Source: Brumimicrobium mesophilum (GTDB lineage: Bacteria; Bacteroidota; Bacteroidia; Flavobacteriales_D; Crocinitomicaceae). Taken from it: a DNA stretch of 64,000 nucleotides. The translations under genes were made by a program, and so were the position numbers. Below are positions 14,967 to 63,692 of this stretch, one piece after another (positions within the stretch are counted from its first letter, which is position 1; each line of letters begins with the position of its first letter). Under the pieces are notes generated by a model. That model worked only from the letters and a program-made list of their open reading frames with translations. It was not told the DNA's origin and did no database searches. Where the stretch lies: the NCBI RefSeq assembly GCF_003025005.1, contig NZ_PVSS01000007.1, positions 62,001 to 126,000 on the forward strand, in the 5' to 3' direction.

Positions 14967-14992
14967 CATGTTAAATTATAAATTTTAGGAAA

Positions 14993-16270: not shown

Positions 16271-16272
16271 AT

Positions 16273-16992: not shown

Positions 16993-16996
16993 TGTT

Positions 16997-17686
16997 ATGA
17001 GTAAGACTGAAGAAAAATTAAAAGCGCCAAGCGAGCCATTGTTCTCAAAAAAGAACAAACGTTTGATTACAGATCCTTTGGCGGATAACAATCCAATTAC
17101 AATTCAGGTACTAGGTATTTGTTCTGCTCTAGCAATTACAGTTCAGGTTGAACAAGCATTCTGGATGTCTATTTCTGTAATCTTTGTAATGGTATTTGGA
17201 AACTTAATTGTTTCATTACTAAGAAACTTAATTCCATCACGTGTAAGAATTATCGTTCAATTGGTAATTGTTGCCTCTTTGGTAATTATTGTAAATGAGT
17301 CGCTTCAAGCTTTCGTTCCTGATGTTTCAGAAAAACTATCAGTATTCGTTGGTTTGATTATAACCAACTGTATTATTATGGGGCGTTTTGAGGCATTCGC
17401 AATGGCAAATAAACCTTTCCCTTCTATTTTGGATGCGATTGGAAATGCAATTGGATATGCTTGGATTCTTGTACTTGTTGCATTAGTTCGTGAAGTTTTA
17501 GGTTCAGGTAAAATTTGGGGAGCTTCCATTTTTGGAAACAACTTACCAGGTGAAGAAAGTGGATTGTATGCTTTAGGGTATGTGAACAATAACATGATGA
17601 TTTTACCTCCAATGGCATTGATAGTTGTGGGAATAATTATTTGGGTTCAGCGTTCGATGAACAAAGAATTAGTTGAAGAAAATTAA
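16997..17686 (+). CDS. nqrD: Na+-translocating NADH:quinone reductase subunit D
   Basis: Six-helix membrane subunit homologous to NqrE and RnfE. 229 aa from the ATG at 16997; the open frame extends 17 codons upstream into nqrC but that part is not NqrD-like. Signatures are NPITIQVLGICSALAIT, LIITNCIIMGRFEAFAM and ALVREVLGSGKI. The Cys of ITNC is expected to help bind the intramembrane iron centre. A hydrophilic N-terminal extension of about 30 residues precedes the core. Confidence 0.96.
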   Translation: MSKTEEKLKAPSEPLFSKKNKRLITDPLADNNPITIQVLGICSALAITVQVEQAFWMSISVIFVMVFGNLIVSLLRNLIPSRVRIIVQLVIVASLVIIVNESLQAFVPDVSEKLSVFVGLIITNCIIMGRFEAFAMANKPFPSILDAIGNAIGYAWILVLVALVREVLGSGKIWGASIFGNNLPGEESGLYALGYVNNNMMILPPMALIVVGIIIWVQRSMNKELVEEN

Positions 17687-17707
17687 TAAGAAGTTTAGAT
17701 TATAATT

Positions 17708-18427
17708 ATGGAAAGTACATTAGATATATTCGTAAAGGCGATTTTTACCGAAAATATGATTTTCGCCTATTTCTTAGGGATGTGCTCTTATTTGGCTGTT
17801 TCTAAAACAGTGAAAACAGGAGTAGGACTTGGATTGGCAGTTGTTTTCGTTTTAGTGGTTACAGTACCAATGAACTATTTATTAGAAAATTACGTTTTAA
17901 AAGAAGGAGCTTTATCTTGGTTAAATCCTGAGTATGGAGTAAGTGGCTCTAAAACAATTGATTTAAGTTTCTTATCTTTTATCATGTTTATCGCCGTTGT
18001 AGCTTCAATTGTTCAATTAGTTGAAATGTTGGTAGAGAAATTTGCACCTGCTCTTTATGGAGCTTTGGGTATTTTCTTACCGCTTATCGCTGTAAATTGT
18101 TCAATTTTAGGTGGAGCATTATTTATGCAAGATCGTCAATACTCAACAATTCTTGATGCAACTTCTTTTGCTTTTGGTTCGGGTATAGGATGGTTTATAG
18201 CAATTGTTTCTTTAGCTGCAATACGTGAGAAAATTCGTTATTCAAACGTTCCTCCAGCTTTAAGAGGTTTAGGTATTACTTTTATCGTGACCGGATTAAT
18301 GGGTATTGCTTTTATGAGTTTCATGGGAGTTGAATACGGAAAAAAGAAAGAAGCGGAAAATACAAACACGATCAGTGGAGGTGCAGTTGAAACCTCTCAA
18401 ATTATTAACGTAAAACAAGAAAACTAA
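17708..18427 (+). CDS. nqrE: Na+-translocating NADH:quinone reductase subunit E
   Basis: Six-helix membrane subunit, paralogue of NqrD. 239 aa. Signatures are [21 protein letters not shown] near the N terminus and [17 protein letters not shown], whose cysteine (with those of NqrD) coordinates the intramembrane iron centre in characterised pumps. A C-terminal hydrophilic tail of about 30 residues ([14 protein letters not shown]) extends past the family core. The stop overlaps the nqrF ATG by one base. Confidence 0.96.
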
Positions 18428-19725
18428 TGGGTTTATCAATTTTAATAACAGTAGTATTCTTCTTAGCAGTAATTTTATTGTTGGTTTCGATGTTGCTTTT
18501 TGTTAAAGCAAAACTGTCTCCAGCTGGAAAAATAACAATTACTATAAACGGAGATAAAGAGTTAGAAGTTAATGGTGGTGATACATTATTAAGTACATTA
18601 GGAAACAATCAAATTTTCTTGCCATCTGCTTGTGGTGGTGGTGGAACATGTATTCAATGTATTTGTCAAGTTCATGAAGGTGGAGGAAGTATTTTACCTA
18701 CAGAAGAGCCGCATTTTTCAAGAAAAGAGATTAAGGAGAATTATCGTTTAAGCTGCCAGGTTAAGGTAAAAGAAAACATGCAGATTGAAGTTCATGATGA
18801 AATTCTTGGGATTAAGGAATGGGAAGCAAAAGTAGTTTCTAACTACAACGTTGCAACATTCATTAAAGAGTTTATTGTTGAGATTCCGGAAGACATGAAT
18901 TATAAAGCGGGAGGGTATATCCAAATCCGTATTCCTAATTGTGTTGTTGATTTCAAAACAATGGATATTACAGCTCACCCTGAAGATCATCCTGGACAGC
19001 CAGATAAGTTTAAAGCAGATTGGGACAAGTTTAAACTTTGGCCTCTTCAAATGAAGAATACAGAGGATACAGTTCGTGCTTATTCTATGGCTTCATATCC
19101 AGCTGAGGGTAGAAAGATCATGTTGAACGTACGTATTGCAACGCCACCATTTGACCGTAAAGCGGGAGGATGGATGAAGGTTAATCCTGGTATTGCTTCA
19201 TCTTATATTTTCAACCTTAAGCAAGGTGATCCAGCGATTATTTCAGGGCCTTATGGTGAATTCTTTATCAATGAAGAATCTGATGCTGAAATGCTTTACA
19301 TCGGTGGTGGAGCTGGAATGGCACCAATGCGTTCTCACTTATATGAGTTATTCAAAACGATGAGAACAGACCGTAAAGTTACATATTGGTATGGAGGTCG
19401 TTCTAAAGCGGAGTTATTCTATATTGAACACTTCCGTGAATTGGAAAGAGAATTCCCTAACTTTAAATTCTATATGGTCTTATCAGAACCTTTAGAAGAA
19501 GATAACTGGAAGGTGAAGAAAGATATTCATGATGAAGAGGGTGATGGTTTTGTAGGATTCGTTCACCAAGTAGTTATTGATCAATATCTAACGAAGCATG
19601 ATGAACCAGAAGATATTGAATTTTATTTCTGTGGACCACCAATGATGAACCAAGCGGTTTTATCAATGTGTGATTCTTGGGGTGTCCCACCAGAGAATGT
19701 ATCGTTTGATGATTTTGGAGGATAA
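18427..19725 (+). CDS. nqrF: Na+-translocating NADH:quinone reductase subunit F
   Basis: NADH-oxidising entry subunit. An N-terminal helix (about 5-26) anchors it. A [2Fe-2S] ferredoxin domain follows with Cys69, Cys75, Cys78 and Cys110 (SACGGGGTCIQC ... LSC). The FAD site is RAYSMASYPAEG and the NADH-binding region is IGGGAGMAPMRSHL. It ends in the family tail PPENVSFDDFGG. 432 aa. Last gene of the operon. Confidence 0.97.
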   Translation: MGLSILITVVFFLAVILLLVSMLLFVKAKLSPAGKITITINGDKELEVNGGDTLLSTLGNNQIFLPSACGGGGTCIQCICQVHEGGGSILPTEEPHFSRKEIKENYRLSCQVKVKENMQIEVHDEILGIKEWEAKVVSNYNVATFIKEFIVEIPEDMNYKAGGYIQIRIPNCVVDFKTMDITAHPEDHPGQPDKFKADWDKFKLWPLQMKNTEDTVRAYSMASYPAEGRKIMLNVRIATPPFDRKAGGWMKVNPGIASSYIFNLKQGDPAIISGPYGEFFINEESDAEMLYIGGGAGMAPMRSHLYELFKTMRTDRKVTYWYGGRSKAELFYIEHFRELEREFPNFKFYMVLSEPLEEDNWKVKKDIHDEEGDGFVGFVHQVVIDQYLTKHDEPEDIEFYFCGPPMMNQAVLSMCDSWGVPPENVSFDDFGG

Positions 19726-42097: not shown

Positions 42098-43864
42098 ATG
42101 AAATACTTTCTCTTAGTTGCACTTTTTTGTTCTTTTATTGGCTTACACGCCCAGGAAGAACCTTTACCTCGCTGGCTGACAGATGATGAGAAAGAACAAA
42201 TGACAACTTATCAATTTAGTGATTATGCTCCACAACGTGGTTCTACAACTCCTCCTAATGGAAATTTGAGAACAATGGCAGAGTGGGAAGAAATCGAGTA
42301 TTTGACGATAACTTGGGTTCCAAATTACTCTAATACTTTGACAGGAATTGTAGCTGCGGCAGTTAACGAATGTAAAGTTTTAATCATCACACCTAACGAA
42401 GCTAATGTAGAATTAACTTTACAAAATGCAGGTGTGTCTACCACAAACGTAGAATATCTTGATAGAAACTATAATTCCATTTGGATGAGGGATTATGCGG
42501 CTAACACTGTTTACCAGGATTGGAATGACTCAAGAATTTTAGTCGATTGGATTTATAATAGACCAAGACCACTGGATAACGGGGCGCCTGAAGCGTATGC
42601 TAACTTTTTAAATATTCCGATTTATCAAATGACGAGTTCTCCAACTGATGTGATAGCAACTGGTGGGAATTATATGTCGGACGGATTTGGAACGAGTATT
42701 TCATCCAAATTAATTATTGATGAAAACGCAATTGGAAATAATTTTGGTGTGACCCCAAAAACAGATCAAGAGCTCAATTCTATTTTTAATTCCTTTATGG
42801 GAATTGATAATTACATAAAAGTTGAACGTTTACCATATGATGATATTGATCACATCGATATGCAAATAAAATTCTTGGATGAAGAAACTCTTTTAGTTAC
42901 TGAATATCCAATGGGAACAGCTGATGGACCTCAAATTGAAGCTAATTTACAATACTTATTATCTAATTTCACTTCAGTTTATGGAACACCTTACCGTGTG
43001 ATTAGAATTGTAGTTCCACCTTCAACAAGTGGATATTATCCAGACAATAATGGATATTACAGAACTTATGCAAATCAGGTTTTCGTGAATAACACCGTGA
43101 TTGTTCCTTTTTATAGAGAAGAATATGATACCATTGCACAACGTGTTTTGGAGGAAGCAATGCCAGGATATAATATTGTTGGAGTTAACGTGGATGGCGA
43201 AAATGGAGAAACCTTAATTGCTTCTGGAGGAGCGATTCATTGTATCACTCACTCTGTGGGAGTTGAAGATCCATTAATGATTTCACATCAACGTTTAAGA
43301 GACACCTATGATAATACAAATCCTTATGAGGTAACGGCGTATATTTCGCATCGATCAGGAATTCAATCGGCAACTTTATATTATAAAATTGGTCAAAACG
43401 GAACTTATCAATCGATTTCAATGACGGATATTGGAGGTGAAGATTGGCAAGCGAATATTCCGGCACAAACTGGAGAGTTAGAAGTTTTCTATTATATTGA
43501 AGCTGAGTCTAATTCTGGTAAGTCCATTACTCGACCTATGCCTGCACCAACTGGATATTGGAAATTTACAGTTTTTGATGCTGGTGATGTTGGTTTGGAT
43601 AACGAAGAAATTGAATCTCTTAAAGTTTATCCAAACCCTGCAACTTCTATAACGGTAATTCCTGTTAAAGCAAATGCAGGAGAGTCAGGAGTAATTGAGC
43701 TGGTTGATGCAACGGGTAGAAGGGTAGAGTTAATTTACGAAGGTAAATTTCCTCAAGGAGAAAAGAATCACTTTATTGATGCCGATAAATTTGCTCAAGG
43801 AACATATTCAGTTCGCATTGCTTCAAATAAAAGAGTAGAAGTTCAGTCATTGGTAATCATGTAA
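42098..43864 (+). CDS. Secreted agmatine/peptidylarginine deiminase-like protein with T9SS domain
   Basis: 588 aa. Signal peptide (1-18, GLHAQ), guanidino-group-modifying catalytic domain (about 40-395), an Ig-like segment (about 400-500), and a T9SS sorting domain (about 510-588, SLKVYPNPATSITVIPV). Candidate catalytic residues are Asp132 (WMRDY), His252 and Asp254 (DHIDM), Asn331/332 (FVNNTVIVPFY) and Cys382 (AIHCITHS). Arg155 and Arg157 (YNRPRP) resemble the substrate-carboxylate arginines of the Porphyromonas enzyme PPAD. The signal/catalytic/Ig/sorting order is the same as PPAD. Whether it acts on peptides or on agmatine is not decided. Confidence 0.88.
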   Translation: MKYFLLVALFCSFIGLHAQEEPLPRWLTDDEKEQMTTYQFSDYAPQRGSTTPPNGNLRTMAEWEEIEYLTITWVPNYSNTLTGIVAAAVNECKVLIITPNEANVELTLQNAGVSTTNVEYLDRNYNSIWMRDYAANTVYQDWNDSRILVDWIYNRPRPLDNGAPEAYANFLNIPIYQMTSSPTDVIATGGNYMSDGFGTSISSKLIIDENAIGNNFGVTPKTDQELNSIFNSFMGIDNYIKVERLPYDDIDHIDMQIKFLDEETLLVTEYPMGTADGPQIEANLQYLLSNFTSVYGTPYRVIRIVVPPSTSGYYPDNNGYYRTYANQVFVNNTVIVPFYREEYDTIAQRVLEEAMPGYNIVGVNVDGENGETLIASGGAIHCITHSVGVEDPLMISHQRLRDTYDNTNPYEVTAYISHRSGIQSATLYYKIGQNGTYQSISMTDIGGEDWQANIPAQTGELEVFYYIEAESNSGKSITRPMPAPTGYWKFTVFDAGDVGLDNEEIESLKVYPNPATSITVIPVKANAGESGVIELVDATGRRVELIYEGKFPQGEKNHFIDADKFAQGTYSVRIASNKRVEVQSLVIM

Positions 43865-44113: not shown

Positions 44114-44818
44114 TTGAAGGATATTAGTAAAATAGCGGTCTTACTCTTTGTACGTAGTGCGTACGAAGAATCCAAGCATAAACAGCTTATAAAAGGAGAG
44201 AGTAGTAAGAACGTTCAATTATTTCAGTACCTCAATAAACGGATTGTAAATACTGTAAAACAGACACAGTACGATTACTTTGTAATTGATTCTACTAATC
44301 AACACGGTGAAACCTTTGCTGAACGATTCAAAAATGCGTTCAAATCAATTTTTGAAAAAGGATATGATGCTGTAATCAGTTTAGGAAATGATACACCTCA
44401 AGTTACAAATCAAACGCTTTATGATGTTGTTCATCAATTTGAAAAACATGATGTTGTTGTTGGAAAAACAAATCAAGGCGGAGCTTATACCATTGGTTTA
44501 ACAAAATATGCGTTTTCAAAATGTTCTTTCGAAGCAGTTGATTGGAGTACAAACCATGTAGTTGAGTCTATAGAAGAACGTGCTATTTTCCAAGGAAGTA
44601 GTTATATTCAACTAAAGACAGTGTACACTGAATTGAGTACTCATTCAGATCTAAAATTATTTATTCAACAATTGATTCAAAAGGAAATCTACCTTGTTGA
44701 AGATTTTTTCTTTTTAGCTTTAATACCAGCCGTAAATCACCACTATAATTATCGACAGTTAAAAATGAACGCCCTCCAAATTGGCGTTACAGAAATTAGA
44801 GGTTCACCTGCAGCCTAG
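44114..44818 (+). CDS. DUF2064-related glycosyltransferase-like protein
   Basis: 234 aa. The start is TTG at 44114: the preceding codon is TAA and no ATG exists until near the C terminus. The DUF2064 core is visible as HGETFAERFKNAFKSIFEKGYDAVISLGNDTPQVT (usually GSDCP or GTDCP) and VVVGKTNQGGAYTIGL (usually DGGYYLIG). DUF2064 proteins have a GT-A-like fold and some occur near arsenosugar or radical-SAM genes, which are absent here. It lies 62 bp before SusC on the same strand, so it is probably the first gene of that operon. Confidence 0.82.
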   Translation: MKDISKIAVLLFVRSAYEESKHKQLIKGESSKNVQLFQYLNKRIVNTVKQTQYDYFVIDSTNQHGETFAERFKNAFKSIFEKGYDAVISLGNDTPQVTNQTLYDVVHQFEKHDVVVGKTNQGGAYTIGLTKYAFSKCSFEAVDWSTNHVVESIEERAIFQGSSYIQLKTVYTELSTHSDLKLFIQQLIQKEIYLVEDFFFLALIPAVNHHYNYRQLKMNALQIGVTEIRGSPAA

Positions 44819-44880
44819 AAGCAATTCTCCGATATTTTTCGGATATTAATTCAATAATTTTTAACTAAAACTAATTCGAT

Positions 44881-47800
44881 ATGAAATTTTTCATAACGAC
44901 CATCTTGTTGATGGTTGGGTTAAATGTGTTGTCTCAAAAGACAATTCAAGGTAAGGTATTCAATGAAAATAATGAAGCCATTCCATACGCAAGCGTAAAA
45001 ATCATAGGTGAAAACAAGGGGACTCAAACAAATGAAAATGGTGATTTCCAATTAATGGTCAGGGAAACTGATTCAGTTCAATTTTCTGCAATTGGATATG
45101 AGACGCAGAGTTTTGCTGTTCTAAACAAATTAGATTGGTCAATTTCAATGGTCTCTTCTGTGAATGAATTAGATGAGGTTGTAATTACAGCCCTTGGTCT
45201 AAAACGCAGTAAAAGAGATTTAGGATATGCCATTCAAACTTTGAAAGGAGATGAAATCACAGAAGTTAGACATCCCAACTTGGTTAATGCCTTAGCGGGT
45301 CGAGTTGCAGGTGTTCAAACAACAAACGGTTCTTCAGGAGTGGGTTCTTCTTCTCGTATTATTATTCGTGGTGAAACTTCACTTTCGGGAAACAATCAAC
45401 CACTTTTTGTTGTTGATGGAGTTCCTGTAAGTAACGAGTTCATTGCCAATAACACCGAAAACCTTGAATCAGGTTTCCATGAAGTAGATTATGGAAATGG
45501 AATTGGGGATTTCAGTGCTGATGATATTGAATCAATCAATGTTTTGAAAGGTCCTAGTGCCGCAGCTTTATATGGAGCACGTGCTGCAGGAGGAGTAATA
45601 ATTATTGAAACTAAAGAAGGTAAACGCAGTGAGGGAATTGGTGTAAGTATCAATTCGAGTGTGACTTTTGAACAAATTGCTTTTCTTCCAGAATTTCAAA
45701 ATACATATGGTCAAGGTTCTGGTGGTGTATTCGCTTATGAAGACGGTCTTGGTAGTGGAGTCGGTGATGGTGGATTGGTAAGTTTTGGTCCTAAAATGGA
45801 CGGTCAGCTCATTACACAATACGACGGAAGTTCATTCGATGATAATGGGAATCCATTGAGAGGTGGTGATGTAATTGCAAGAAATGGAAATCCAATTACT
45901 GCAACGCCATGGACGGAAAGTCCTGATAATGTTAGGAATTTCTTTCAAACTGGAGTTACGAGTCAGCAAAATGTAGCTTTGGCAGGTGCCAATGATAATG
46001 GAAGTTTTCGATTGTCATATACACGTATGGATAACGAGGGAACATTACCAAACTCAGATTTTAAGAGAAATAATATTGCTTTGACAAGTACTTATAATTT
46101 ATCTCCAAGGTTGAGTATTCGAACGCATGCTACTTTTATTAACTCATCTTCAACTCACCGACCAGGTTTAGGTTATGGAAGTGAAAATGTAATGTATTCT
46201 TTTCTTTGGATGGGAAGACAAGTCGATTTAACCGCTGCTGAAGATTATTGGCAAGCTGGTCAAGAAGGATTCCGTCAATTCAATTATAATACACAGTGGT
46301 TGGACAATCCATTTTTCAATGTTTATGAAAATCGGAATGGGTTCGAGAAAAACCGTTTATTGGGAAATGCGAGTTTAAAATATGAAATTTCAAAGCATTT
46401 AAATATTCGTTTTCGTTCAGGTATTGATACTTACAATGATTTGAGAACTTCTCAAAGAGCTTTTAGTACACAACGTTTCAAGAATGGAGCTTATAGAGAA
46501 GACGATATTTCTTTTACTGAATTAAACACTGATTTAATGTTGTCTTATGATAATAGTTTTGGTGAAAAATGGGATTTTAACGCAGCAGTTGGAGCAAATA
46601 ACTTCACGCAGGAAACAAGATATAAAAGTTTGTTGGCTGGGCAATTATCTGTACCAGGAGTCTATAACTTTGAAAATTCTAAAATTGCTCTGGAGGCTTC
46701 TCAATTTAATGCACAAAAACAAATTAATTCAGTTTATGGATTGACCGGAATTGGATTTGATAGATTCTTATTCTTGGACTTAACGGTAAGAAATGATTGG
46801 TCCACGACTTTGCCGGTTGACAACAATTCATTTGCTTATTATTCTGTAAATGGTGCATTTGTTTTTTCTGAGAAATTAAATTCGCCAGATTGGTTTTCTT
46901 ACGGGAAATTAAGAGCAAGTACTTCAAGTGTGGGAGCTGATACGGGGCCTTTTCAATTACGAAATACATATTCATTCAACCAAAATTACGGGAGCTATCC
47001 ACTGTTAACGAATGGCTCAACTTTATTGAATGAAAACTTGAAGCCAGAAAGAATCAATGCTTTAGAAGCAGGAGTGGAGTTATATTTTTTCAATGAACGT
47101 TTAGGTGTTGATGTCACGGTTTATCAAAACACGGCCAAAGATCAAATTATCACTTTGCCAACGTCATCTGCAAGCGGTTATTCTGGACAAGTAATTAACG
47201 GGGGAGAAATTCAAAGCAAAGGAATTGAAATCATGTTGACAGGAACTATTGTTAAAACAGAAAACTTTAAATGGACTTCATTTGCTAATTTCAGTAAAGG
47301 AGCGAGTTATGTAACTGAATTACCAGAAGGAATTGACCAATACACAACAGGATTTGCTCGTTTATACACAACTGCAGAAAACACGATTTTCTATATTGCC
47401 AATTCCGAAAACGGTGGAAGAATTGGTGACATGTACGGAACTGGATTTATGAAAACGGATGAAGGTCGAATTATTTATGGTGCAAATGGATTGCCTATTC
47501 GTGACAATGAATTGCGTTATTTAGGAAATTACAATCCAGACTTTATTGTTGGTTTTGGAAACAGGTTTGAGTACAAAGGATTTACTTTGAATGTATTACT
47601 AGATTGGCGTTATGGTGGGGAGATCATTTCTAGAACAAAAGCAGTTGGATCAACTTCTGGAGTTTTAGCTGAAACCATAGATGGACGAGAAGAAGGAATT
47701 ATAGGTGATGGAGTTGTGAATGTAGGAACAGAAAGTAATCCAATTTATGAGGAGAATACAACTTCAGTTTCAGCAGCAGAATATTACAATCAATTCTTTA

Positions 47801-48078
47801 ATCGTGCGAATGAAGAGAGTTCAGTTTACGATGCTTCTTATTTGAAAATTAGAGAAATTGGACTTTCTTATACTTTCCCAAATCAATGGGTTTCCAAATT
47901 CAATATTGAGGAATTTCAAATTGGTTTAGTTGCACGTAATTTATTCACATGGACAGAAAATCCACATTTTGATCCAGAATTGAGCGCAATGCAAGGAACT
48001 TCTCAAATTTATGGAGTAGAAGATTTATCCTATCCTTCTTCAAGAAGTTATGGAATTCAAGTAAAATTTAAATTTTAA
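44881..48078 (+). CDS. SusC/RagA-family TonB-linked outer-membrane receptor
   Basis: 1065 aa, full length. Signal peptide (1-18), carboxypeptidase-D-like regulatory domain (about 20-100, IQGKVFNENNEAIPYASVKI), SusC plug signature (VITALGLKRSKRDLGYAIQ, then GRVAGVQTTN), and a 22-strand barrel ending in SYPSSRSYGIQVKFKF with a terminal aromatic. SusC forms the transport barrel that SusD closes. The four genes downstream follow with almost no gap. The substrate is unknown; no glycoside hydrolase lies nearby. Confidence 0.97.
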   Translation: MKFFITTILLMVGLNVLSQKTIQGKVFNENNEAIPYASVKIIGENKGTQTNENGDFQLMVRETDSVQFSAIGYETQSFAVLNKLDWSISMVSSVNELDEVVITALGLKRSKRDLGYAIQTLKGDEITEVRHPNLVNALAGRVAGVQTTNGSSGVGSSSRIIIRGETSLSGNNQPLFVVDGVPVSNEFIANNTENLESGFHEVDYGNGIGDFSADDIESINVLKGPSAAALYGARAAGGVIIIETKEGKRSEGIGVSINSSVTFEQIAFLPEFQNTYGQGSGGVFAYEDGLGSGVGDGGLVSFGPKMDGQLITQYDGSSFDDNGNPLRGGDVIARNGNPITATPWTESPDNVRNFFQTGVTSQQNVALAGANDNGSFRLSYTRMDNEGTLPNSDFKRNNIALTSTYNLSPRLSIRTHATFINSSSTHRPGLGYGSENVMYSFLWMGRQVDLTAAEDYWQAGQEGFRQFNYNTQWLDNPFFNVYENRNGFEKNRLLGNASLKYEISKHLNIRFRSGIDTYNDLRTSQRAFSTQRFKNGAYREDDISFTELNTDLMLSYDNSFGEKWDFNAAVGANNFTQETRYKSLLAGQLSVPGVYNFENSKIALEASQFNAQKQINSVYGLTGIGFDRFLFLDLTVRNDWSTTLPVDNNSFAYYSVNGAFVFSEKLNSPDWFSYGKLRASTSSVGADTGPFQLRNTYSFNQNYGSYPLLTNGSTLLNENLKPERINALEAGVELYFFNERLGVDVTVYQNTAKDQIITLPTSSASGYSGQVINGGEIQSKGIEIMLTGTIVKTENFKWTSFANFSKGASYVTELPEGIDQYTTGFARLYTTAENTIFYIANSENGGRIGDMYGTGFMKTDEGRIIYGANGLPIRDNELRYLGNYNPDFIVGFGNRFEYKGFTLNVLLDWRYGGEIISRTKAVGSTSGVLAETIDGREEGIIGDGVVNVGTESNPIYEENTTSVSAAEYYNQFFNRANEESSVYDASYLKIREIGLSYTFPNQWVSKFNIEEFQIGLVARNLFTWTENPHFDPELSAMQGTSQIYGVEDLSYPSSRSYGIQVKFKF

Positions 48079-48082
48079 AATC

Positions 48083-49501
48083 ATGAAAAAGATACTTATA
48101 TATACACTCATTTCCTTCCTATTTATAGGGTGTAAGAAATTTGATCAATCCAATATTAATCAGAATGCACCAGAAAATGTAAATCCACAATTTTTATTAT
48201 CGAATGTACTTTCGGAAGGTTCAAATAATCAAGCTTATTGGGGTTGGCACGCAGGTAGTTTATTGGCACAACATACCTCTAATTTGGAATTCCTACCAGT
48301 AGACCGTTACAATTTAGGTTCTAATGAAGGATTATGGACAGCAACTTATCGTTTGATGAAAGATTTAACTGATATCAAAAATAGCGAGCAAGGAAATGAT
48401 GCTTATTCTGCTGTTGCTGATATACTTATCGCTCATCAGGCCAGCTTGTTGACAGATTTATGGACGAATGTGCCTTATTTTGAAGCCTTAAAAGGTCAGA
48501 GCGAAGGAAACTTTACTCCGGCTTTTGACACGCAAGAATCTATTTACACAGGAGAAGGAGGAATTCTTGATTTACTTGAAAAATCAGTGAATACCCTTCA
48601 ATCTACAACTGATAATATTGATGGAGATATCATGTATCAAGGAAACCTGACAAAATGGATAGCTTTTGCAAATGGATTGAGAATACGTTATTTATTGAGA
48701 ATTAGCAATCAAGTAAATGTCTCAACGGAAATGCAAGCAATCGTTGATGAGGGTTTGTTATTCCAAAGTTTGTTTGATGAAGCGGTTGTTCCATATTTGT
48801 CAGCTTCTCCAAATCAATGGGTGATTTTCACAGAGCGTGAAGGGCGTTATGTCGATGTGCGGATGAGTAAAACAGCAGAGGATATTATTACTCCTTTCAA
48901 TGACCCAAGGATAGCACATTATTATAAGCCAACGGCAAATTCAACACCTGGAAGTGAGGAGTATAATGGAATTCCAAACGGGTTGAGCAGACAAAGTCAA
49001 TTAAGCTTTAATTTAAGCGACGTTTCTTTGTTGGGAAGTTATTTGCGTGATGAACCAGATGCTGTAAAAGCAGCTTTTATGACTTTTTCAGAATTACAGT
49101 TTTGTTTAGCAGAAGCTGCACACAAAGGATTAATTAGTGGAAGTTCAACCATCTATTATGAAAATGGAATTCGGGCTTCTTTTAACCATTTAGGAGTGGA
49201 TATCCCAAGTGGATATTTATCACAAATGAATGTTTTACTTAGCTCTGGAGATGAATTAGAGAAAATCATGACCCAAAAATGGATTTCTTCTTTTATGAAT
49301 GGTTATGAAGCTTGGTTTGATTACCGCAGAACTGGATTTCCAACGCTAACAATTCCTCAAGACAATTTAAATAATGATGTTTACCCTGTGAGATATGCCT
49401 ATCCTTCAACCGAACAAGCAGTGAATGGTTCAAACTACTCCCAAGCTGTAGGTGCAATCGGAGGTGACACATACAACAGTAAAGGATGGTGGGAGCAATA
49501 G
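48083..49501 (+). CDS. SusD/RagB-family nutrient-binding lipoprotein
   Basis: 472 aa. Lipobox LFIGC (Cys17). N-terminal helices NAPENVNPQFLLSNVL, then WTNVPYFEALKG, FTPAFDTQESIYTG, LLEKSVNTLQ, and the C-terminal FSELQFCLAEAAHKG with WFDYRRTGFPTLTIP, the typical SusD-like (RagB/SusD superfamily 2) layout. It binds the nutrient over the SusC barrel. Starts 4 bp after SusC; its 3' end overlaps the symporter start by 16 bp. Confidence 0.96.
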   Translation: MKKILIYTLISFLFIGCKKFDQSNINQNAPENVNPQFLLSNVLSEGSNNQAYWGWHAGSLLAQHTSNLEFLPVDRYNLGSNEGLWTATYRLMKDLTDIKNSEQGNDAYSAVADILIAHQASLLTDLWTNVPYFEALKGQSEGNFTPAFDTQESIYTGEGGILDLLEKSVNTLQSTTDNIDGDIMYQGNLTKWIAFANGLRIRYLLRISNQVNVSTEMQAIVDEGLLFQSLFDEAVVPYLSASPNQWVIFTEREGRYVDVRMSKTAEDIITPFNDPRIAHYYKPTANSTPGSEEYNGIPNGLSRQSQLSFNLSDVSLLGSYLRDEPDAVKAAFMTFSELQFCLAEAAHKGLISGSSTIYYENGIRASFNHLGVDIPSGYLSQMNVLLSSGDELEKIMTQKWISSFMNGYEAWFDYRRTGFPTLTIPQDNLNNDVYPVRYAYPSTEQAVNGSNYSQAVGAIGGDTYNSKGWWEQ

Positions 49502-50841
49502 AAGATAATTTTAAATTTTGGCAATGGACGTTGGTTATCGCAACCAGCGTCTTGCTGATCTTATTGTCACCATGGGCAAAGAATGCTAAACAATTTTTCG
49601 CGGCTAGTTCAAAAGGAAAGTCACCCAATTTTGGAATGCTCACCGGAAGTTTAGTTATTTCTTGGGTCTTTGCAAAATCAATTGCAGTGGCTTCGGATTT
49701 AGGGTTTGAACACGGATTTACCGGAGGGTTGGCTTATGCTTCTTATTACGCTTCTTTTTTAGTAGCAGGAGTTATCATTTACCGCATGAGAACAAAAGGA
49801 GGAATCACAAGTATTCATTCTTTCCTCAATGAAAAATTTGGTCGACAAGCGCTACAGCTTTTTTCAGTTGTAATTGCCATTCGATTATTCAATGAAGTAT
49901 GGTCAAATACTATGGTTATTGGCTATTTCTTTGGAGAATATGGGACTGTACCATTTTATTCTTCCGTCATTGTGTTCACAGTTTTGACCTTGGTGTATTC
50001 CTTAAAAGGAGGCTTGAGCAGTTCTATTTTTTCTGATTTAATTCAAATTGGATTATTTGGAATCTTAATGATTTCGATTTTGGTGATTTTTAATGGTCAA
50101 AGTGAATCAACTATAGGTGAAGTTATCACAGAAGGAGATTTTTCATTTGACAATGGAATCAATCTTATTTTGGTTGGACTTTTACACAGTTTTTCTTATC
50201 CTTTTCATGACCCGGTAATGACAGACCGTGGATTTATCAGTAAACCTAAAACTACTTTGTGGAGTTTTATTTTCGCTGGAATACTTGGCGGACTATTAAT
50301 TTTTGCTTTTAGTTTAGTTGGAATTTTTGGCAGATTAAATGGAGCAGAGTCAAGTGATTTAACCACGTTTGGAACCTTGTTTGGTCCACTTATGCTGTTG
50401 ATGATTAATTTTATTATGATAGTTTCGGCTTCTTCAACTTTGGATTCTTCGTTTTCTTCTGCTTCAAAATTAATTGCCGTAGATTTAAAAAGAGGGGCTA
50501 CTTTGAAAGTAGGGCGTTGGTCGATGCTAATTTTCGCAATTGCCGGTTCAATCCCTTTGTTTTTCGATCCCAAAATTCTTTCAGCAACCACAATTAGTGG
50601 AGTTATGGTAATTGGATTAACACCTATATTTCTTTTTTGGAAAACTCCTGCACCTAAAATCAGTTATTTCTTAAGTGTTATTGTAGGAATAGTGTTCGGA
50701 ATAATGACAGCTTTAGATTTATTTCCTGAGCAAATGTTTTTTACAAGTGGTCCATACAACGACTTACTTTGGATAACTTTATTTGCTTTAATAATGTGTT
50801 TTATTGTTTACTTTGTTCCGAAATGGCTAAAATTCAAATAA
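49486..50841 (+). CDS. Sodium:solute symporter family protein
   Basis: 451 aa, shorter than the 500-550 usual in this family. About twelve hydrophobic helices. The family is recognised from ASYYASFLVAGVIIYRMRTKGGITSIHSFLNEKFG, YSLKGGLSSSIFSDLIQIG (the SSS signature near helix 5) and IVSASSTLDSSFSSASKLIAVDL. It takes up an organic solute with Na+ across the inner membrane. The first ATG (49486) overlaps SusD by 16 bp; a GTG at 49489 is possible. It is the inner-membrane step for whatever SusCD imports. Confidence 0.9.
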   Translation: MVGAIEDNFKFWQWTLVIATSVLLILLSPWAKNAKQFFAASSKGKSPNFGMLTGSLVISWVFAKSIAVASDLGFEHGFTGGLAYASYYASFLVAGVIIYRMRTKGGITSIHSFLNEKFGRQALQLFSVVIAIRLFNEVWSNTMVIGYFFGEYGTVPFYSSVIVFTVLTLVYSLKGGLSSSIFSDLIQIGLFGILMISILVIFNGQSESTIGEVITEGDFSFDNGINLILVGLLHSFSYPFHDPVMTDRGFISKPKTTLWSFIFAGILGGLLIFAFSLVGIFGRLNGAESSDLTTFGTLFGPLMLLMINFIMIVSASSTLDSSFSSASKLIAVDLKRGATLKVGRWSMLIFAIAGSIPLFFDPKILSATTISGVMVIGLTPIFLFWKTPAPKISYFLSVIVGIVFGIMTALDLFPEQMFFTSGPYNDLLWITLFALIMCFIVYFVPKWLKFK

Positions 50842-50847
50842 AATAAA

Positions 50848-51681
50848 ATGGAGTCTTCTCACCTGCACCTCTTTTTTGGAGGATCTTACAGTAATATTCA
50901 TGCATTAAAAGCATTGAAATACGAGGCTGGAAAACTTCAAATTCCTGCAAAGAATATCTACCATACTGGAGATGTGGTTGGATATTGTGCTTCTCCAAAC
51001 GAAACAGTTAATGCTGTTCGAGAATGGGGAATCAATGTTATCGCGGGAAATGTAGAAGTTCAATTAAGTGATGGGGAAGAAGATTGTGGTTGTAATTTTG
51101 AAGAAGGATCCCGTTGTTCGAATTTTTCAAATTTGTGGTACCCATTTGCTAAAATTCAAGTGAGTCAAGCAAACATAGATTGGATGAAAACGCTTAATAA
51201 CCATCAAATTATTGTAATTGATGGTTTAAGATTAGGGATTATTCATGGAGGAATTGAGAACATTTCTGAATTTATATTTAAAAGCACACCTTCTTCTATC
51301 AAGGAAAAGATTATAAAAAAATTAAACGTTGATGTAATTGTAGCTGGACATTGTGGAATTCCATTTATGCAACAACTTGGCAACGCACATTGGATTAACC
51401 CTGGAGTAATTGGAATGCCAGCCAATGATGGAACTACAAAAGTTTGGTATACAATTTACAATTCTGAAACAAAAACATTTTCTTCACATGCGTTGAAATA
51501 TGATTTCAATAAAACGAGTGAGGAAATGGTTCAAAAACAACTTCCAATGGAATACGCAAAAACAATAGTTGATGGAATTTGGGATAATTGTGAGATTTTA
51601 CCAAGTGAAGAAACTAAGATGCAAGGGGTGGAGCTGAAGGAGGAGAGCATATCCATTCAATTGGAAAAGTCTAGGGTTTAA
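50848..51681 (+). CDS. Variant calcineurin-like metallophosphoesterase
   Basis: 277 aa, 6 bp after the symporter gene. The fold motifs are in order but changed: motif I, normally SDxHGN, is GGSYSN (11-16); GDVVGYCASPNE (41-52) keeps the bridging Asp42; GNVE (67-70) keeps Asn68; IHGG (132-135) keeps His133; GHTH is GHCG (167-170), keeping only the first histidine. So the D, H and second H that normally hold metal site 1 are missing, while site-2 ligands remain. A cysteine-rich insert (Cys80, Cys82, Cys90) and Cys47 and Cys169 are unusual. Function not established. Confidence 0.85.
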   Translation: MESSHLHLFFGGSYSNIHALKALKYEAGKLQIPAKNIYHTGDVVGYCASPNETVNAVREWGINVIAGNVEVQLSDGEEDCGCNFEEGSRCSNFSNLWYPFAKIQVSQANIDWMKTLNNHQIIVIDGLRLGIIHGGIENISEFIFKSTPSSIKEKIIKKLNVDVIVAGHCGIPFMQQLGNAHWINPGVIGMPANDGTTKVWYTIYNSETKTFSSHALKYDFNKTSEEMVQKQLPMEYAKTIVDGIWDNCEILPSEETKMQGVELKEESISIQLEKSRV

Positions 51682-53205: not shown

Positions 53206-53278
53206 GCGAGAGTAGCTCAGCTGGTAGAGCACAACCTTGCCAAGGTTGGGGTCGCGGGTTCGAATCCCGTCTCCCGCT
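53206..53278 (+). tRNA. tRNA-Gly(GCC)
   Basis: 73 nt. Acceptor GCGAGAG/CTCCCGC, D-arm GCTCAGCTGGTAGAGC, anticodon loop TTGCCAA giving GCC, T-arm GCGGGTTCGAATCCCGT, discriminator T. The acceptor pair at position 4:69 is A-C instead of the usual G-C. A perfect hairpin CTCGAAA/TTTCGAG begins at its 3' end (53277-53294). Confidence 0.93.
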
Positions 53279-53376
53279 CGAAATACTTTTCGAGAGGAAG
53301 GGGATATGAAATACTCCCTGAGTCGTTCGATTTACTCTTAGTAAGCCGTTTTGTTGCAAAATAAAATAACTGTCCT

Positions 53377-53460
53377 GCCCGGATGGTGGAATTGGTAGAC
53401 ACGCCGGACTTAAAATCCTGTGCTCTTTGGGGCGTGCGGGTTCAAGTCCCGCTCCGGGTA
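53377..53460 (+). tRNA. tRNA-Leu(TAA)
   Basis: 84 nt class II tRNA. Acceptor GCCCGGA/TCCGGGT, anticodon loop CTTAAAA giving TAA, long variable arm, T-loop GGGTTCAAGTCCC, A73. 98 nt after tRNA-Gly, same transcript. Confidence 0.95.
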
Positions 53461-58616: not shown

Positions 58617-59089
58617 CGTAATATATTCAAAATTCGTTTTTCGAAACCATTTTTAATTCCGTCGATAAATTCTTCTTTGTCATGAACATACATTGCATGA
58701 ATGTATAAAACTTTTCTGTCATCTGATATGTCTAAACTTAGTGTCCCAGGAGTTAAAGTGATAACATTGGCCAATAATGTAATTTCTAAATCTGACTCCG
58801 CAGTTAATGGATATTTGATGATTCCAGGTTCCATGTAAAATTTTGGAGTCACCACATCGGCTGCAACTTGTATATTGGCTTTTACTAATTCATATAAAAA
58901 GTAGAATGTAAAACTAAATAAGCTTGGAACAATTGAAAAATATTTTCTCTTTCCGTGGTTAGAACTAATTAACCAAAGTACTAAGAAGCTCAATATAAAT
59001 CCAAACGCAAAATTTGTTGCATTGACTGTTCCTGTAAGGAAAACCCAAACAACAGACAGTAATATATTTAATAGAAATTGTATTTTCAT
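58613..59089 (-). CDS. mnhE: Na+/H+ antiporter subunit E
   Basis: 158 aa. Two helices at the N terminus, then a cytosolic domain with LVKANIQVAADVV and LLANVITLTPGTLSLDISDDRKVLYIHAMYV, the MnhE pattern. Overlaps MnhD and MnhF by 4 bp on each side. Confidence 0.95.
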   Translation of the reverse strand: MKIQFLLNILLSVVWVFLTGTVNATNFAFGFILSFLVLWLISSNHGKRKYFSIVPSLFSFTFYFLYELVKANIQVAADVVTPKFYMEPGIIKYPLTAESDLEITLLANVITLTPGTLSLDISDDRKVLYIHAMYVHDKEEFIDGIKNGFEKRILNILR

Positions 59090-60612
59090 AGCTCTGAAAC
59101 TTCTTTAATTCCGTAAACAGCATTATAGTAGTGCTCTGTATTCATTAATTCCTCACCAATTCTTTCGGCAACCATTTGAAAGTGTTCTGCGAAAAAACTA
59201 TAATATAAAGTTACGCCAACAAGTAAAATAATTGGAGCAACATATGCCGCTTTTTCGGCAAAACTGAAATCATTAAAATACTTAAAAGACAATTTCCGCT
59301 CTCTTTTAGGGTCGCTTGTTGAAAAGGATTTGTTCCATATTTTTGCAATAATCACCAAAGTAATCAAACTCGCAAAAATGAACATTACCAACATGGCTAT
59401 TTCCCCAGCTGTATAACTTGCGCTAAACAATGAGATTTTTGGCCAAAAGCCTGAAAGTGGTGGAATCCCTACCAGTGCAAATAATGGAATAGCAAATAAG
59501 AATGAAAGCTTAGGGTAATCGTCCATCATTCCTCCCATATTATATAATCTAGTTGATCCAAATATCCTAAACATTACTCCGCCAAGCATAAACAATGTGG
59601 CTTTGACAATTATGTCATGGAACATATACATAATAGCTCCTACAATAGCAACTTCAGTGAATAAGCTTAATCCTCCAACCATAAATCCAATATGACAAAT
59701 GATCAAATAAGAGAAAACTCTCATCATATCTTTTTGAACCAACGCTCCAATTCCTCCAAAGAACATTGTGAGTCCAGCGATAATCATTAATATAATTTGG
59801 TTGGTTTCTCCCAAGGGGAAAATGAGTGTGAAGACCCGCAACATTGCATAAATTCCAACTTTGGTTAGCAATCCTGCGAATAATGCAGAAACTGCAGCTG
59901 GAGGAGTGTGATAGGAGGCAGGAAGCCAAAAATACAATGGGAAAACTCCTGACTTCACTCCAAATCCAATAAAGAAAATCAAAGAAATTGTTTGCATCAA
60001 TCCTTTGTTTTCAATTTCAGGAATAATGCGCGACAATTCTGCCATGTTCAAAGATCCTGTAGCTCCATAAACCATCGCAATTCCTGTTAGGAAAATGATT
60101 GAAGAAATCATATTCAAAGTGAAGTATTTTACTGCACCTTCGATTTGAATTTTTCTTCCTCCAATGGTTAATAAAACGAATGAAGAGATAATAATTACCT
60201 CAAACCAGACATAAAGATTGAATAAATCTCCTGTTAAGAATGCTCCAGATAATCCCATGATTAAGAAGTGGAAAATGGCATAATAACCAAATTTCACCCT
60301 TGATGAAACCATGTTTTCAGTGGAGTAGATGGATAAGGCGAAAGCCACAATGTTGGTTAGAAGAATCAGTGAAACAGCTAGGGTGTCAGCGACCATACTA
60401 ATTCCGAACGGAGCTTCCCAATTTCCTAATTGAATACTTTGTATTCCGTTTTCCCAAACTCTACTAAATAGAAGTCCTCCAATAACTATTCCTGCGGCAC
60501 TTCCTACAATACTGATGTAACGCTGAATTTTTGGATTCATCCAAAAGAACAACAAAAGAATTGCAGTAATTAAATGAACAAGAATCGGATATATTGTTAA
60601 ATGTTCGCTCAT
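59086..60612 (-). CDS. mnhD: Na+/H+ antiporter subunit D
   Basis: 508 aa, about fourteen helices, homologous to NuoL/M/N proton-channel subunits. [29 protein letters not shown], then [38 protein letters not shown] with the conserved lysines and [26 protein letters not shown]. It acts with MnhA in ion translocation. Overlaps MnhC by 4 bp. Confidence 0.96.
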
Positions 60613-60962
60613 GTTATATCGTCAGTTTTATTCATAGTATCAATATCGTCAGTTTTCAAGACTTTATAGGCTCTTTTAATTAATACAATAGCAAAAGATT
60701 GCAGTCCAAAACTGATTACAATTGCTGTTAAAATTAAGGCCTGTGGTACAGGATCGGCATATAAACCTTCCAATGCTTTTCCTTCTGATAAAATCAATGG
60801 TGGATTACCTTTTACAAGTCCTCCCATTAAAAATATTAAAAGATTTACTCCATTTCCAAGGATTACAATTCCAATGATTAGTTTAACTAGACTGCGGCGA
60901 AGAATCAAATAGATCCCCGCGGCATAAAGTATTCCAGTCATTATCGCTAATAGTATTTCCAT
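60609..60962 (-). CDS. mnhC: Na+/H+ antiporter subunit C
   Basis: 117 aa from the ATG at 60962 ([24 protein letters not shown]), which is NuoK-like; fifteen upstream codons overlapping mnhB do not fit. Three helices; [24 protein letters not shown] and [20 protein letters not shown] carry the family glutamine/glycine patches. Starts 5 bp after MnhB. Confidence 0.95.
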
Positions 60963-60967
60963 AATAA

Positions 60968-61381
60968 TTAAACGCTTTCTGAGATGGTGAAGATAATAGT
61001 TAAACACACCCCTACTACTACCAAATAAACTCCTGTATCGAAGAAAAGAGCACTTCCTATTTTCCCTAGGATTGCAATGTCTTTGTCATACCAAAGACCG
61101 GTCATTAGTGGATCTCCAGTCATTAAAATAGGTGCTAAAGCACTTAAAACTGCTATTGATAATCCAACAGGAATTAAAAATCCAGGATGTATTCTTAGTA
61201 CTTTTCTCGTTTCTTTTAATCCATTCGCGAAAGCATGAAGAATAAATGCAATTGCTGCAATTAATCCTCCAATAAATCCACCTCCAGGAAGGTAATGCCC
61301 ACGCAGTAAAACGAATACTGAAAACAATATCAGTAAAGGCAAAAGGGTTATTGAAATGGTATGTAATATTAAACTCTTCAT
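60968..61381 (-). CDS. mnhB: Na+/H+ antiporter subunit B
   Basis: 137 aa, four helices. [30 protein letters not shown] and the later [19 protein letters not shown] are MnhB hallmarks. It is a separate protein here, not fused to MnhA. One base separates it from the mnhA stop. Confidence 0.95.
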
Positions 61382-61382
61382 T

Positions 61383-63692
61383 TTATTTTTCGTTTTTCTT
61401 TAAGTGTAACTTAAGTAAGGCAAATACTCCAATTGCTGAAATAGCTAGAACGACAATTTCAATCATGGTGTCAAATCCACGGAAATCAACCAAAATCACA
61501 TTTACAACATTTTTTCCTTTTGCTAAAACATAAGCATTTTCGGCATAATATTCACTGGTCTTTTTTAAAGGTGTTTCATTCATAATTTCAATAATCGTGA
61601 ATGCCAAAAATGTTCCAAATGACATTGCTACAATGGCATCTCGAACCCTATTGGTGCGATTAGAGAGTTTAAGGTATTTTGGTAATCGATAAAGTACCAA
61701 CACAAATAAAATTACAGTTAAAGTATCAATGGAGAATTGTGTCATTGCTAAATCGGGTGCACCGTAGAAAACAAAGATCAAACACATTGTGTAACCTAAA
61801 ACTCCCATCCCGGCAATGGCTGTAAGTCTAGATTTTGTGAATACAGTAAACAAAATTGAAACTAACATCATGGCCAGAATTACAATTTCATTCCAATTTA
61901 ATGCCTTGATTTCTTTTACAGAAAGGAATATCCTAGGATTAATGAAAACGTGAATTCCAAATACTAAAGTCAATAACACTAGGATTACCATAACATATCG
62001 GCGTAAATAACCATTTTGGAATGTTCTTGTTAAAATATATGATAACTTTTGAAATAAATCAGAAAACTTCAAGGCTAAACTTTTTGGAGAAATAGCTTCA
62101 AATTTCATCATTGAACCTTCCTTCTTATGACTTGGTTTCCAAATGAAGTAAATGATAATTCCTGAGATAATTGTTATTGCACTTAATAAAAGAATTAAGT
62201 TGAAACCGTGCCAAATCGCCAAGTGTGGACTCTCTTCTCCCGTTAAAAGTGGTGTGATATTATGTGTAAACAAGGCTTCTACCATTGAAGGGAATAGTCC
62301 AAATAATAAACTAAGCACTGCTAATATCATCGGCATAAACCAAAGAAAGAAATGTGGTTTCTTAATTTCACCAAGGTCCTCGTTTTGTTTTCCAGCGAAT
62401 GGTTTTACACCGACTAATAATCCAGCAAAAACCATTAAAATATTGGTTAAAACGGCCATTGTAGTTAATAGAACTGGATTTAGTCCACCATGTAATGTGG
62501 CTTCATAAATTAAATCTTTACCAATAAAACCAACTGTAGGAGGGAATCCACCACTGGATAAAGCAGCAATTAATCCTGCAATTGCTAAAGGCATTAATAC
62601 TTTTCTGAGCCCACTTAATTTTGTAATGTCACGTGTTTTCGCTTGATGATCAATTGTTCCGGTAACCAAGAATAAACTGGCTTTATATAAAGCGTGAACA
62701 ACAATAAAAACAATGGCTGCAGTGATAGAAGCAGATGTTCCAATTCCTATCAAAAAAACCATAATTCCCAATGCTCCAATTGTGGAATAGGCCAAAATCC
62801 CTTTTAAATCTGTTTTAAATAACGTCTGGAATGCAGCGTAAAGCATCGTGATTGCTCCAACGATTAATAAGGTTGTAAAGAAATAGGAGTTGTTTTGAAA
62901 GTGCGGAGTAAAACGCAATAACAAGTAAATACCCGCTTTTACCATGGTTGCAGAGTGCAAATAAGTTGAAACTGGAGTTGGGGCTTTCATGGCTCCTGGT
63001 AACCAAAAATGGAAAGGAAATTGAGCTGATTTAGTAAATGCCGCTAAAAATATAAAGACCATTAAAATGACAGAATACTGATGATTTGCGAATACTTCAG
63101 GTGATTGAAGCATTTCTGCTATCGATAAAGTTCCTGTAATTTGTCCGGCTAAAACCGCAAAAGCCAATAATGCTAATCCTCCTAATCCAGTGATTGTTAA
63201 TGCGATAATTGCCGATTTCCGAGAAGGAGCTTCTGTATTATTGAAACTAATTAAGAAGAAAGAACTGATACTTGTTAATTCCCAGAAAATAAAGAGTGTA
63301 ATGATGTTGTTTGAAGTAACTAACCCCAACATCGCTCCCATAAAAATGGAAAGAAATACATAAAAACGCAGTAATTTTGGATGACCTTTTAGGTATTGCG
63401 TAGTGTACAGAAACACTATACTCCCAACTCCTGTGATTAATAAGGTAAAGAGTAGTGCAAGGTTGTCGAGTCGAAAATCTAGGTTGATGCCCAGAGAAGG
63501 AACCCAAGAAGTGAATGAATTATACACTTCACCATTCATTATGGATTTCGCAAAACTAGAGAAATAGATAAATAATGAAATAGGCAAAAGTGCTGCGAAC
63601 CATGTCATTCGTTGGAATGTCTTTTGCCCGATGCCAAAAAGCAACAAAGAAAACACGAATGATGAGAGTATAACGATTAAAAATACGGTCAT
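61383..63692 (-). CDS. mnhA: Na+/H+ antiporter subunit A
   Basis: 769 aa, the usual full length. The N-terminal 500 residues are NuoL-like ([91 protein letters not shown]). The C-terminal part carries the MrpA-specific DUF4040/MbhD-E-like region ([52 protein letters not shown]). First gene of the A-G operon. The gap to the right-edge gene (63693-63962) is AT-rich and should hold its promoter. Confidence 0.97.

Follow-up and report, generated by a model that had tools for sequence, protein, structure and literature searches.

Within a 64,000-nucleotide stretch of Brumimicrobium mesophilum contig NZ_PVSS01000007.1 (hereafter the window), five forward-strand genes at positions 44114-51681 encode a DUF2064 protein, the outer-membrane proteins SusC and SusD, a symporter of the SSS family and a calcineurin-superfamily, phosphoesterase-like protein (MPE). 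Our analysis suggests that this locus is probably an uptake-and-handling module of the ArsS pathway, serving an organoarsenical or a related phosphodiester and regulated by a nascent-chain sensor at its head; as part of that reading, the five genes would form one operon. The functional link between the unit and the ArsS pathway is very probable and well supported by the comparison of genomes, and regulation of the unit by translational arrest is likely from the conserved tail of its first gene product.

Conservation of the unit

We compared 10 loci with MPE relatives from named genomes and 15 from sampled Bacteroidota genomes, and base rates were taken from one draw of 395 Bacteroidota genomes. 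Re-derivation of the open reading frames (ORFs) reproduced exactly the gene order and the intergenic gaps of 62, 4, -16 and 6 bp given in a preliminary description of the locus, and profile matches bore out its family names, the symporter being diverged. About 20 further Bacteroidota loci have the SusC, SusD, SSS and MPE genes grouped, and in the same order where no contig break intervenes; they come from two other Brumimicrobium species (Crocinitomicaceae), Saprospiraceae, Marinoscillum, Cyclobacteriaceae, Nitritalea (Cytophagales being among the groups represented) and further Bacteroidia. The MPE gene of locus L052 is inverted and still adjoining, in another locus (L009) the SusC, SusD and SSS frames are broken, and three loci (L003, L005 and L051) are interrupted by contig ends. 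The DUF2064 gene heads 15 of the fetched loci as well as the window, and is seen in L004 only as a truncated remnant. The preliminary description had taken the five genes for a functional unit, and this conservation supports it: separation of SusCD from the symporter or the phosphoesterase gene, or a neighbouring gene for a carbohydrate-active enzyme (CAZyme), was looked for in these roughly 20 loci and not seen.

The locus contains no CAZyme or peptidase gene, and no such family recurs in three or more of the 25 loci, in agreement with the earlier remark that a hydrolase is missing; in this it departs from a SusCD polysaccharide utilisation locus. The notable recurrent flanking families are only the unit genes themselves, arsS, DUF2064/TIGR04282 and a fatty-acid-hydroxylase family. 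The pairwise distances of the SusC, SusD, SSS and MPE proteins correlate with r = 0.71-0.97, species phylogeny not being removed from these values. An orthologue of MPE above 360 bits occurs in nine of the 395 genomes, and the next match drops to 128 bits. The unit is rare but conserved.

The fatty-acid hydroxylase (PF04116) genes adjoin the unit in three lineages (L009, 2799-3677; L023, 16306-17589; L024/L025), possibly marking a link to arsenolipids or to lipids in general. A separate observation concerns L006, a metagenome-assembled genome labelled Rickettsiales bacterium NP5, whose unit hardly differs from the Marinoscillum one; the bin is probably mislabelled or mixed.

Association with ArsS

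ArsS is the radical-SAM (rSAM) enzyme of the arsenosugar pathway. In work cited in PMC12159101 and PMC8552651, it is described as attaching the adenosyl group to the arsenic atom when oxo-arsenosugars are made. ArsS is present above cut-off in all nine unit-bearing genomes of the draw as against 156 of the 395 overall (Fisher p = 2e-4, uncorrected for phylogeny), and in 25 of the 26 unit-bearing genomes overall, the exception being an 89%-complete assembly in 840 contigs. Since such co-occurrence tests ignore phylogeny, the repeated adjacency of arsS and the unit in different arrangements is the stronger argument. In six of the 26 genomes the gene is no more than about 2 kb away from the unit, in at least three arrangements, namely 5' of the DUF2064 gene, 3' of the MPE gene (directly so in L026, L029 and L048) and beside the MPE gene on the other strand (L023, at about 1.4 kb). 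Two loci, L024 and L025, read arsS-DUF2064-SusC-SusD-SSS-MPE-TIGR04282-PNP-(aquaporin)-ArsM-outer-membrane protein-fatty-acid hydroxylase-DUF547-TIGR04283, where PNP is a purine-nucleoside phosphorylase and ArsM is of the arsenosugar type.

The unit is associated both physically and phylogenetically with the known arsenosugar clusters (ArsM, ArsS, PNP, TIGR04282 and TIGR04283), one of whose enzymes, TIGR04282, has the DUF2064 protein as a paralogue. Unlike those clusters, the unit adds uptake genes, and B. mesophilum keeps arsS and TIGR04282 elsewhere: ArsS (442.7 bits) is encoded on another contig than the unit (C12, 123961-124863), and its gene is followed by a canonical TIGR04282-like gene of its own, the pair lying at 9309-11075 of L069. 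No match to NF038099, the arsenosugar-type ArsM, was found in the B. mesophilum genome. This methyltransferase occurs in 25 of the 395 genomes, all of them ArsS-positive, and most genomes with ArsS are without it; an association of the unit with it beyond that with ArsS was not significant (3 of 9 against 22 of 147, p = 0.16). The preliminary description had assigned no substrate to the locus. Its view of the genes as an uptake system stands, but the context is not blank, the unit being tied to the ArsS pathway.

DUF2064 protein and its C-terminal tail

The DUF2064 protein matches PF09837 with 63.9 bits and TIGR04282 with 73.6 bits, the latter under the curated cut-off of 134, and its TTG start codon is the same in the two other Brumimicrobium species. 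The best match of its predicted structure (predicted local distance difference test, pLDDT, of 79) in the PDB is 3cgx, followed by guanylyltransferases of the CofC/FbiD type, and the core is thus modelled as a GT-A/CofC-type nucleotidyltransferase-like fold. As the KTRL motif of canonical TIGR04282 proteins is replaced, catalysis may be lost or changed. We regard the gene as paralogous to that of the arsenosugar enzyme TIGR04282, from which it has diverged.

Beyond the core the model loses confidence, with pLDDT dropping under 60 at about residue 190 and under 50 at residue 206. All 16 DUF2064 orthologues carry a tail of the form R/K-[GAP]-[PS]-P (six RGPP, three each of RAPP, RGSP and KGSP, and one RPPP), which ends 44-53 residues after the last core residue and is followed by the stop codon 2-10 residues later; susC starts 48-136 nt further 3'. 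Among the 801 ORFs of the window and all fetched loci, [RK][GA][PS]P within the last 12 residues was found in 15, every one of them a DUF2064 gene, and R[GA]PP does not occur anywhere in the SusC, SusD, SSS or MPE proteins. The canonical TIGR04282 proteins do not have the tail. In the three Brumimicrobium sequences RGSP is constant, its codons show synonymous variation at three of the four places, and the residues past the motif differ; an origin of the RGPP tail at the level of DNA rather than protein was dropped because of this synonymous variation.

RAPP and RGPP are demonstrated arrest motifs, the strongest known, with RGPP foremost, and belong to the most avoided tetrapeptides; such motifs sit near the ends of small proteins encoded 5' of regulated genes, including those for TonB-dependent receptors (PMC12992588). 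RGSP is the demonstrated arrest motif of Mannheimia SecM (PMC10987492). One of these three motifs is placed in the same way in 12 of the 16 orthologues (RGSP in the window), that is, near the C-terminus of a protein shorter than 300 residues and 5' of the gene that would be regulated. The closest precedent is the CruR/bfrG operon of Bordetella pertussis, where, as in the unit, the first gene of a TonB-transporter operon ends in a RAPP-type motif; CruR senses copper, which relieves the arrest and leads to Rho-dependent termination before the receptor gene (PMC9426467). However, CruR is a small DUF2946 protein that senses the metal through a CXXC motif, whereas the motif is carried here by a nucleotidyltransferase-like domain of 234 residues, a paralogue of a pathway enzyme, and the arrest is putative. 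The preliminary description had proposed that the DUF2064 protein modifies the solute. For a diverged TIGR04282-type protein with an arrest-like tail, this seems less likely than regulation of the operon.

Transport proteins

SusC scores far above the TIGR04056 cut-off of 368 (Table 1) and matches the TIGR04057 signature with 58.6 bits. SusD has a lipobox-like N-terminus whose Cys17 is invariant in 18 orthologues; receptor and lipoprotein genes adjoin, and both proteins are above cut-off, as in other SusCD pairs. In the B. mesophilum genome (3.88 Mb, 99.8% complete) this SusD is the sole PF12771 protein and PF07980 has zero matches; the locus is therefore not one of many glycan loci.

Taken alone, the window symporter gives a weak TIGR00813 match, no Pfam match and no homologue in a sequence search of the PDB. 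PF00474 matches 16 of 20 of its orthologues, which places them in the SSS family, and the orthologue profile matches the choline transporter SLC5A7 and SGLT1/2 in the PDB. The symporter and its orthologues carry invariant segments such as SYPFHDPVxTDRxF. The only relative of the symporter on plasmids is a single isolated Marinobacter gene with uninformative neighbours. A Na+-NQR operon (13599-19725) and Mrp/MBH-type antiporter subunits (59086-63692) in the window point to sodium energetics, which are plausible, and the Nqr genes are no more than consistent with Na+ coupling of the predicted symporter. The suggestion that SusC, SusD and the symporter together make a complete path for a small solute through both membranes also remains plausible for the proteins predicted here.

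Phosphoesterase-like protein MPE

The model of MPE (pLDDT 90) is closest to 3rqz, 1nnw and 3qfm (SapH) in the PDB. With 3rqz and the SapH-type asymmetric Ap4A hydrolases/phosphodiesterases it shares the fold (TM score about 0.7-0.8) and D, N, H and H at the equivalent motifs, these residues (D42, N68, H133 and H168) being retained in 28 of 28 homologues. In contrast to them, D-x-H has become G-x-Y and GHxH has become GHxG in all 28, which removes metal site 1 and leaves MPE without the full two-metal site, and an invariant CGC...C is added (C80-x-C82-x7-C90, again in 28 of 28, with a nearly invariant C248). The preliminary description was right in calling the phosphoesterase a variant, but with D-x-H missing an ordinary role in handling phosphate, which it had also suggested, is doubtful. 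Three clustered thiols are a usual arrangement for holding As(III), although zinc or structural roles of these cysteines are equally possible. A hydropathy scan of MPE revealed no signal peptide or membrane segment; its site of action would thus be the cytosol.

A member of the MPE subfamily with 41% identity, in which GGxYSN, D, N, H, H and C-x-C...C are all retained, is encoded on a plasmid of Roseomonas haemaphysalidis in the order TIGR04282-DUF547-rSAM-rSAM-PhnD/PhnE/ATPase-MPE, with a TIGR04283-like gene nearby. There, an ABC transporter of the PhnD/E/C type (phosphonate-type binding) occupies the place of SusCD-SSS. This single example supports the view that MPE and an importer are a functional pair and that the solute is anionic, phosph(on)ate- or arsen(on)ate-like.

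On the side of SusC, the nearest relatives on plasmids (36% identity) belong to two Hymenobacter plasmids that are near-identical, and the genes after them encode SusD, a calcineurin-like phosphoesterase and a glycerophosphodiester phosphodiesterase (GDPD), as at 5959-13259 of L079 in Hymenobacter radiodurans, which is possibly a phosphodiester-uptake locus. A Parabacteroides relative is followed by SusD and a metallophosphoesterase, and two other close relatives have no phosphoesterase neighbour. SusC relatives beside phosphoesterases or GDPD support a phosphodiester theme, and also a reading of the unit as a phosphate-scavenging locus. Natural phosphodiesters of arsenic do exist: arsenosugar-phosphate and arsenosugar phospholipids are found with algae (PMC7345539).

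Proposed mechanism and alternative explanations

We propose that the nascent DUF2064 domain would sense a compound of the pathway, or its lack, during translation, and that arrest or release at RGSP would decide whether susC and the genes 3' of it are expressed, in the manner of CruR with copper. SusC and SusD would carry the solute over the outer membrane and the symporter over the inner membrane, presumably inwards; MPE, with its one metal site and three-cysteine cluster, would bind or cleave it in the cytosol, and enzymes of the ArsS pathway would then use or neutralise it. The solute would most likely be an organoarsenical, such as a (glycerophospho)arsenosugar or a methylated arsenical, or else a phosphodiester precursor; for an organoarsenical we consider the chances to be about even. 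Arsenosugar phosphodiesters would fit SusCD, the phosphodiesterase fold and ArsS together, and the lack of ArsM in many of the genomes with the unit would agree with methylated arsenicals.

Several observations weigh against this proposal. It is not obvious why cells that synthesise arsenosugars themselves should need to import them. In 20 of the 26 genomes, B. mesophilum included, arsS stands apart from the unit, no 8-mer promoter word is common to the locus and arsS in the three Brumimicrobium genomes, and as ArsS is common while the unit is rare, the unit would be an accessory of the pathway. The arsenosugar-type ArsM is found in only four of the 26 unit-bearing genomes and any ArsM above cut-off in 11, so that the product of the pathway in B. 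mesophilum, and arsenosugar synthesis in hosts without ArsM, are not established. The DUF2064 gene is absent from at least four full-length units (L023, L027, L028 and L029). With regard to arrest, KGSP replaces the Arg, reported as irreplaceable, in three orthologues, all of one family, and a hydropathy scan found no signal or membrane segment in any DUF2064 orthologue, whereas almost all published RAPP leaders of TonB genes have one. Between the motif and susC there is no conserved RNA hairpin: z-scores range from +1.4 to -4.7 without shared structures, and a hairpin at 44828-44843 does not exceed what chance gives for patterns of this kind. The missing RNA structure would fit a Rho-type rather than a hairpin-type mechanism, or the absence of arrest.

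That last possibility has its own explanation, which we consider unlikely: the RGPP/RGSP tail might be a docking motif for another protein, for example MPE, on a DUF2064 protein that is an active enzyme of the pathway. A docking peptide can likewise be a linear C-terminal motif that follows a flexible linker, KGSP occurs in three orthologues, and the Asp of the GT-A fold (D93) is retained, but KTRL is lost, the residues past the motif vary freely, the gene lies directly 5' of a TonB-class transporter gene, and proteomes strongly avoid RGPP and RAPP other than close to where leader ORFs end (PMC12992588). As regards the solute, a phosphate-utilisation locus of the PUS/PusCD type is conceivable and in our view improbable; SusCD and the symporter would import a phosphodiester such as a glycerophosphodiester, the phosphoesterase would free phosphate or the alcohol, and the tie to ArsS would be indirect, for instance through phosphate stress raising arsenate uptake. 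The published PusCD loci of Flavobacterium are indeed CAZyme-free SusCD pairs beside phosphoesterases and inner-membrane transporters (PMC8115612), which also means that the lack of CAZymes, highlighted in the preliminary description, is true of the unit but not new in itself. The Hymenobacter and Parabacteroides relatives and the phosphonate-type binding protein of Roseomonas point the same way. However, PusCD loci have a periplasmic or secreted phosphoesterase, whereas that of the unit has no signal peptide and has lost D-x-H and the second His of GHxH in all homologues; the transporter of the unit is of the SSS type, two close SusC relatives stand without a phosphoesterase gene, and the genomic tie is to ArsS instead of phosphate genes, with a co-occurrence and adjacency that would not be expected of a general phosphate locus.

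It is more doubtful still that the unit takes up an ordinary small nutrient (a nucleoside, a choline-like compound or a vitamin) and shares only its ecology with ArsS. The resemblance of the symporter profile to SLC5A7 and the SGLTs, and the distance of arsS in most genomes, would agree with this. We list on the same side an Rfam scan of the window, which gave no vitamin or other riboswitch, a signal that the preliminary description had suggested as a lead; the only matches above cut-off were two tRNAs, with genes at 53206-53460, about 1.5 kb 3' of the unit. Against it stand arsS adjoining the unit in several independent arrangements, the two genomes whose full arsenosugar cluster encloses the unit, the DUF2064 protein being a paralogue of a pathway enzyme, and the recurrence of the MPE subfamily in an arsenosugar-like gene set of Alphaproteobacteria.

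Returning to a module of the ArsS pathway, its most specific version is tentative: a metabolite-sensing leader derived from an enzyme, diverged from an arsenosugar nucleotidyltransferase-like protein and ending in RGPP or RGSP, would control dedicated organoarsenical import through the TonB-class receptor and the SSS symporter by ribosome arrest, and MPE, a three-cysteine relative of phosphoesterases, would be the intracellular binder or hydrolase of the arsenical. The parts of the unit have known relatives in PusCD, CruR and the arsenosugar clusters; the novelty lies in the link to ArsS and in the arrest-type tail. If the proposal holds, the unit would be the first case both of a SusCD system devoted to an organoarsenical and of an arrest leader made from a metabolic enzyme of the same pathway, and would carry nascent-chain regulation beyond secretion and copper into metabolite uptake in Bacteroidota, the phylum that uses SusCD most. 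How heterotrophic bacteria acquire or recycle algal arsenosugars and arsenolipids is largely unknown, and an import module would explain the source of methylated arsenic in cells with ArsS and no matching ArsM.

Layout and surroundings of the locus

The features of the locus are listed in Table 1. Its nearest named relatives are those of Brumimicrobium glaciale and B. aurantiacum.

Table 1. Genes and sequence features of the unit, in window coordinates.
Feature	Position	Strand	Remarks
DUF2064/TIGR04282-like protein	44114..44818	+	234 aa, TTG start; candidate nascent-chain sensor
C-terminal linker of DUF2064 protein, residues 180-228	44651..44797	+	partly disordered in model
RGSP codons AGA GGT TCA CCT	44798..44809	+	putative ribosome-arrest motif, stop 2 residues later
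SusC/RagA-type TonB-dependent outer-membrane transporter	44881..48078	+	1065 aa; TIGR04056 619 bits
SusD-like_2 surface lipoprotein	48083..49501	+	472 aa; PF12771 300 bits
Diverged SSS-family inner-membrane symporter	49486..50841	+	451 aa; TIGR00813 35 bits
Calcineurin-superfamily protein (MPE), predicted cytosolic, SapH-like fold	50848..51681	+	277 aa; Metallophos_2 PF12850 43.5 bits

Just 5' of the unit, at 42098-43864 of the window, lies a gene for a protein of the peptidyl-arginine/agmatine deiminase family (PF04371) with a type IX secretion system tail. Among the compared loci, a PF04371 gene at this place is common only to the window and B. glaciale (L001).

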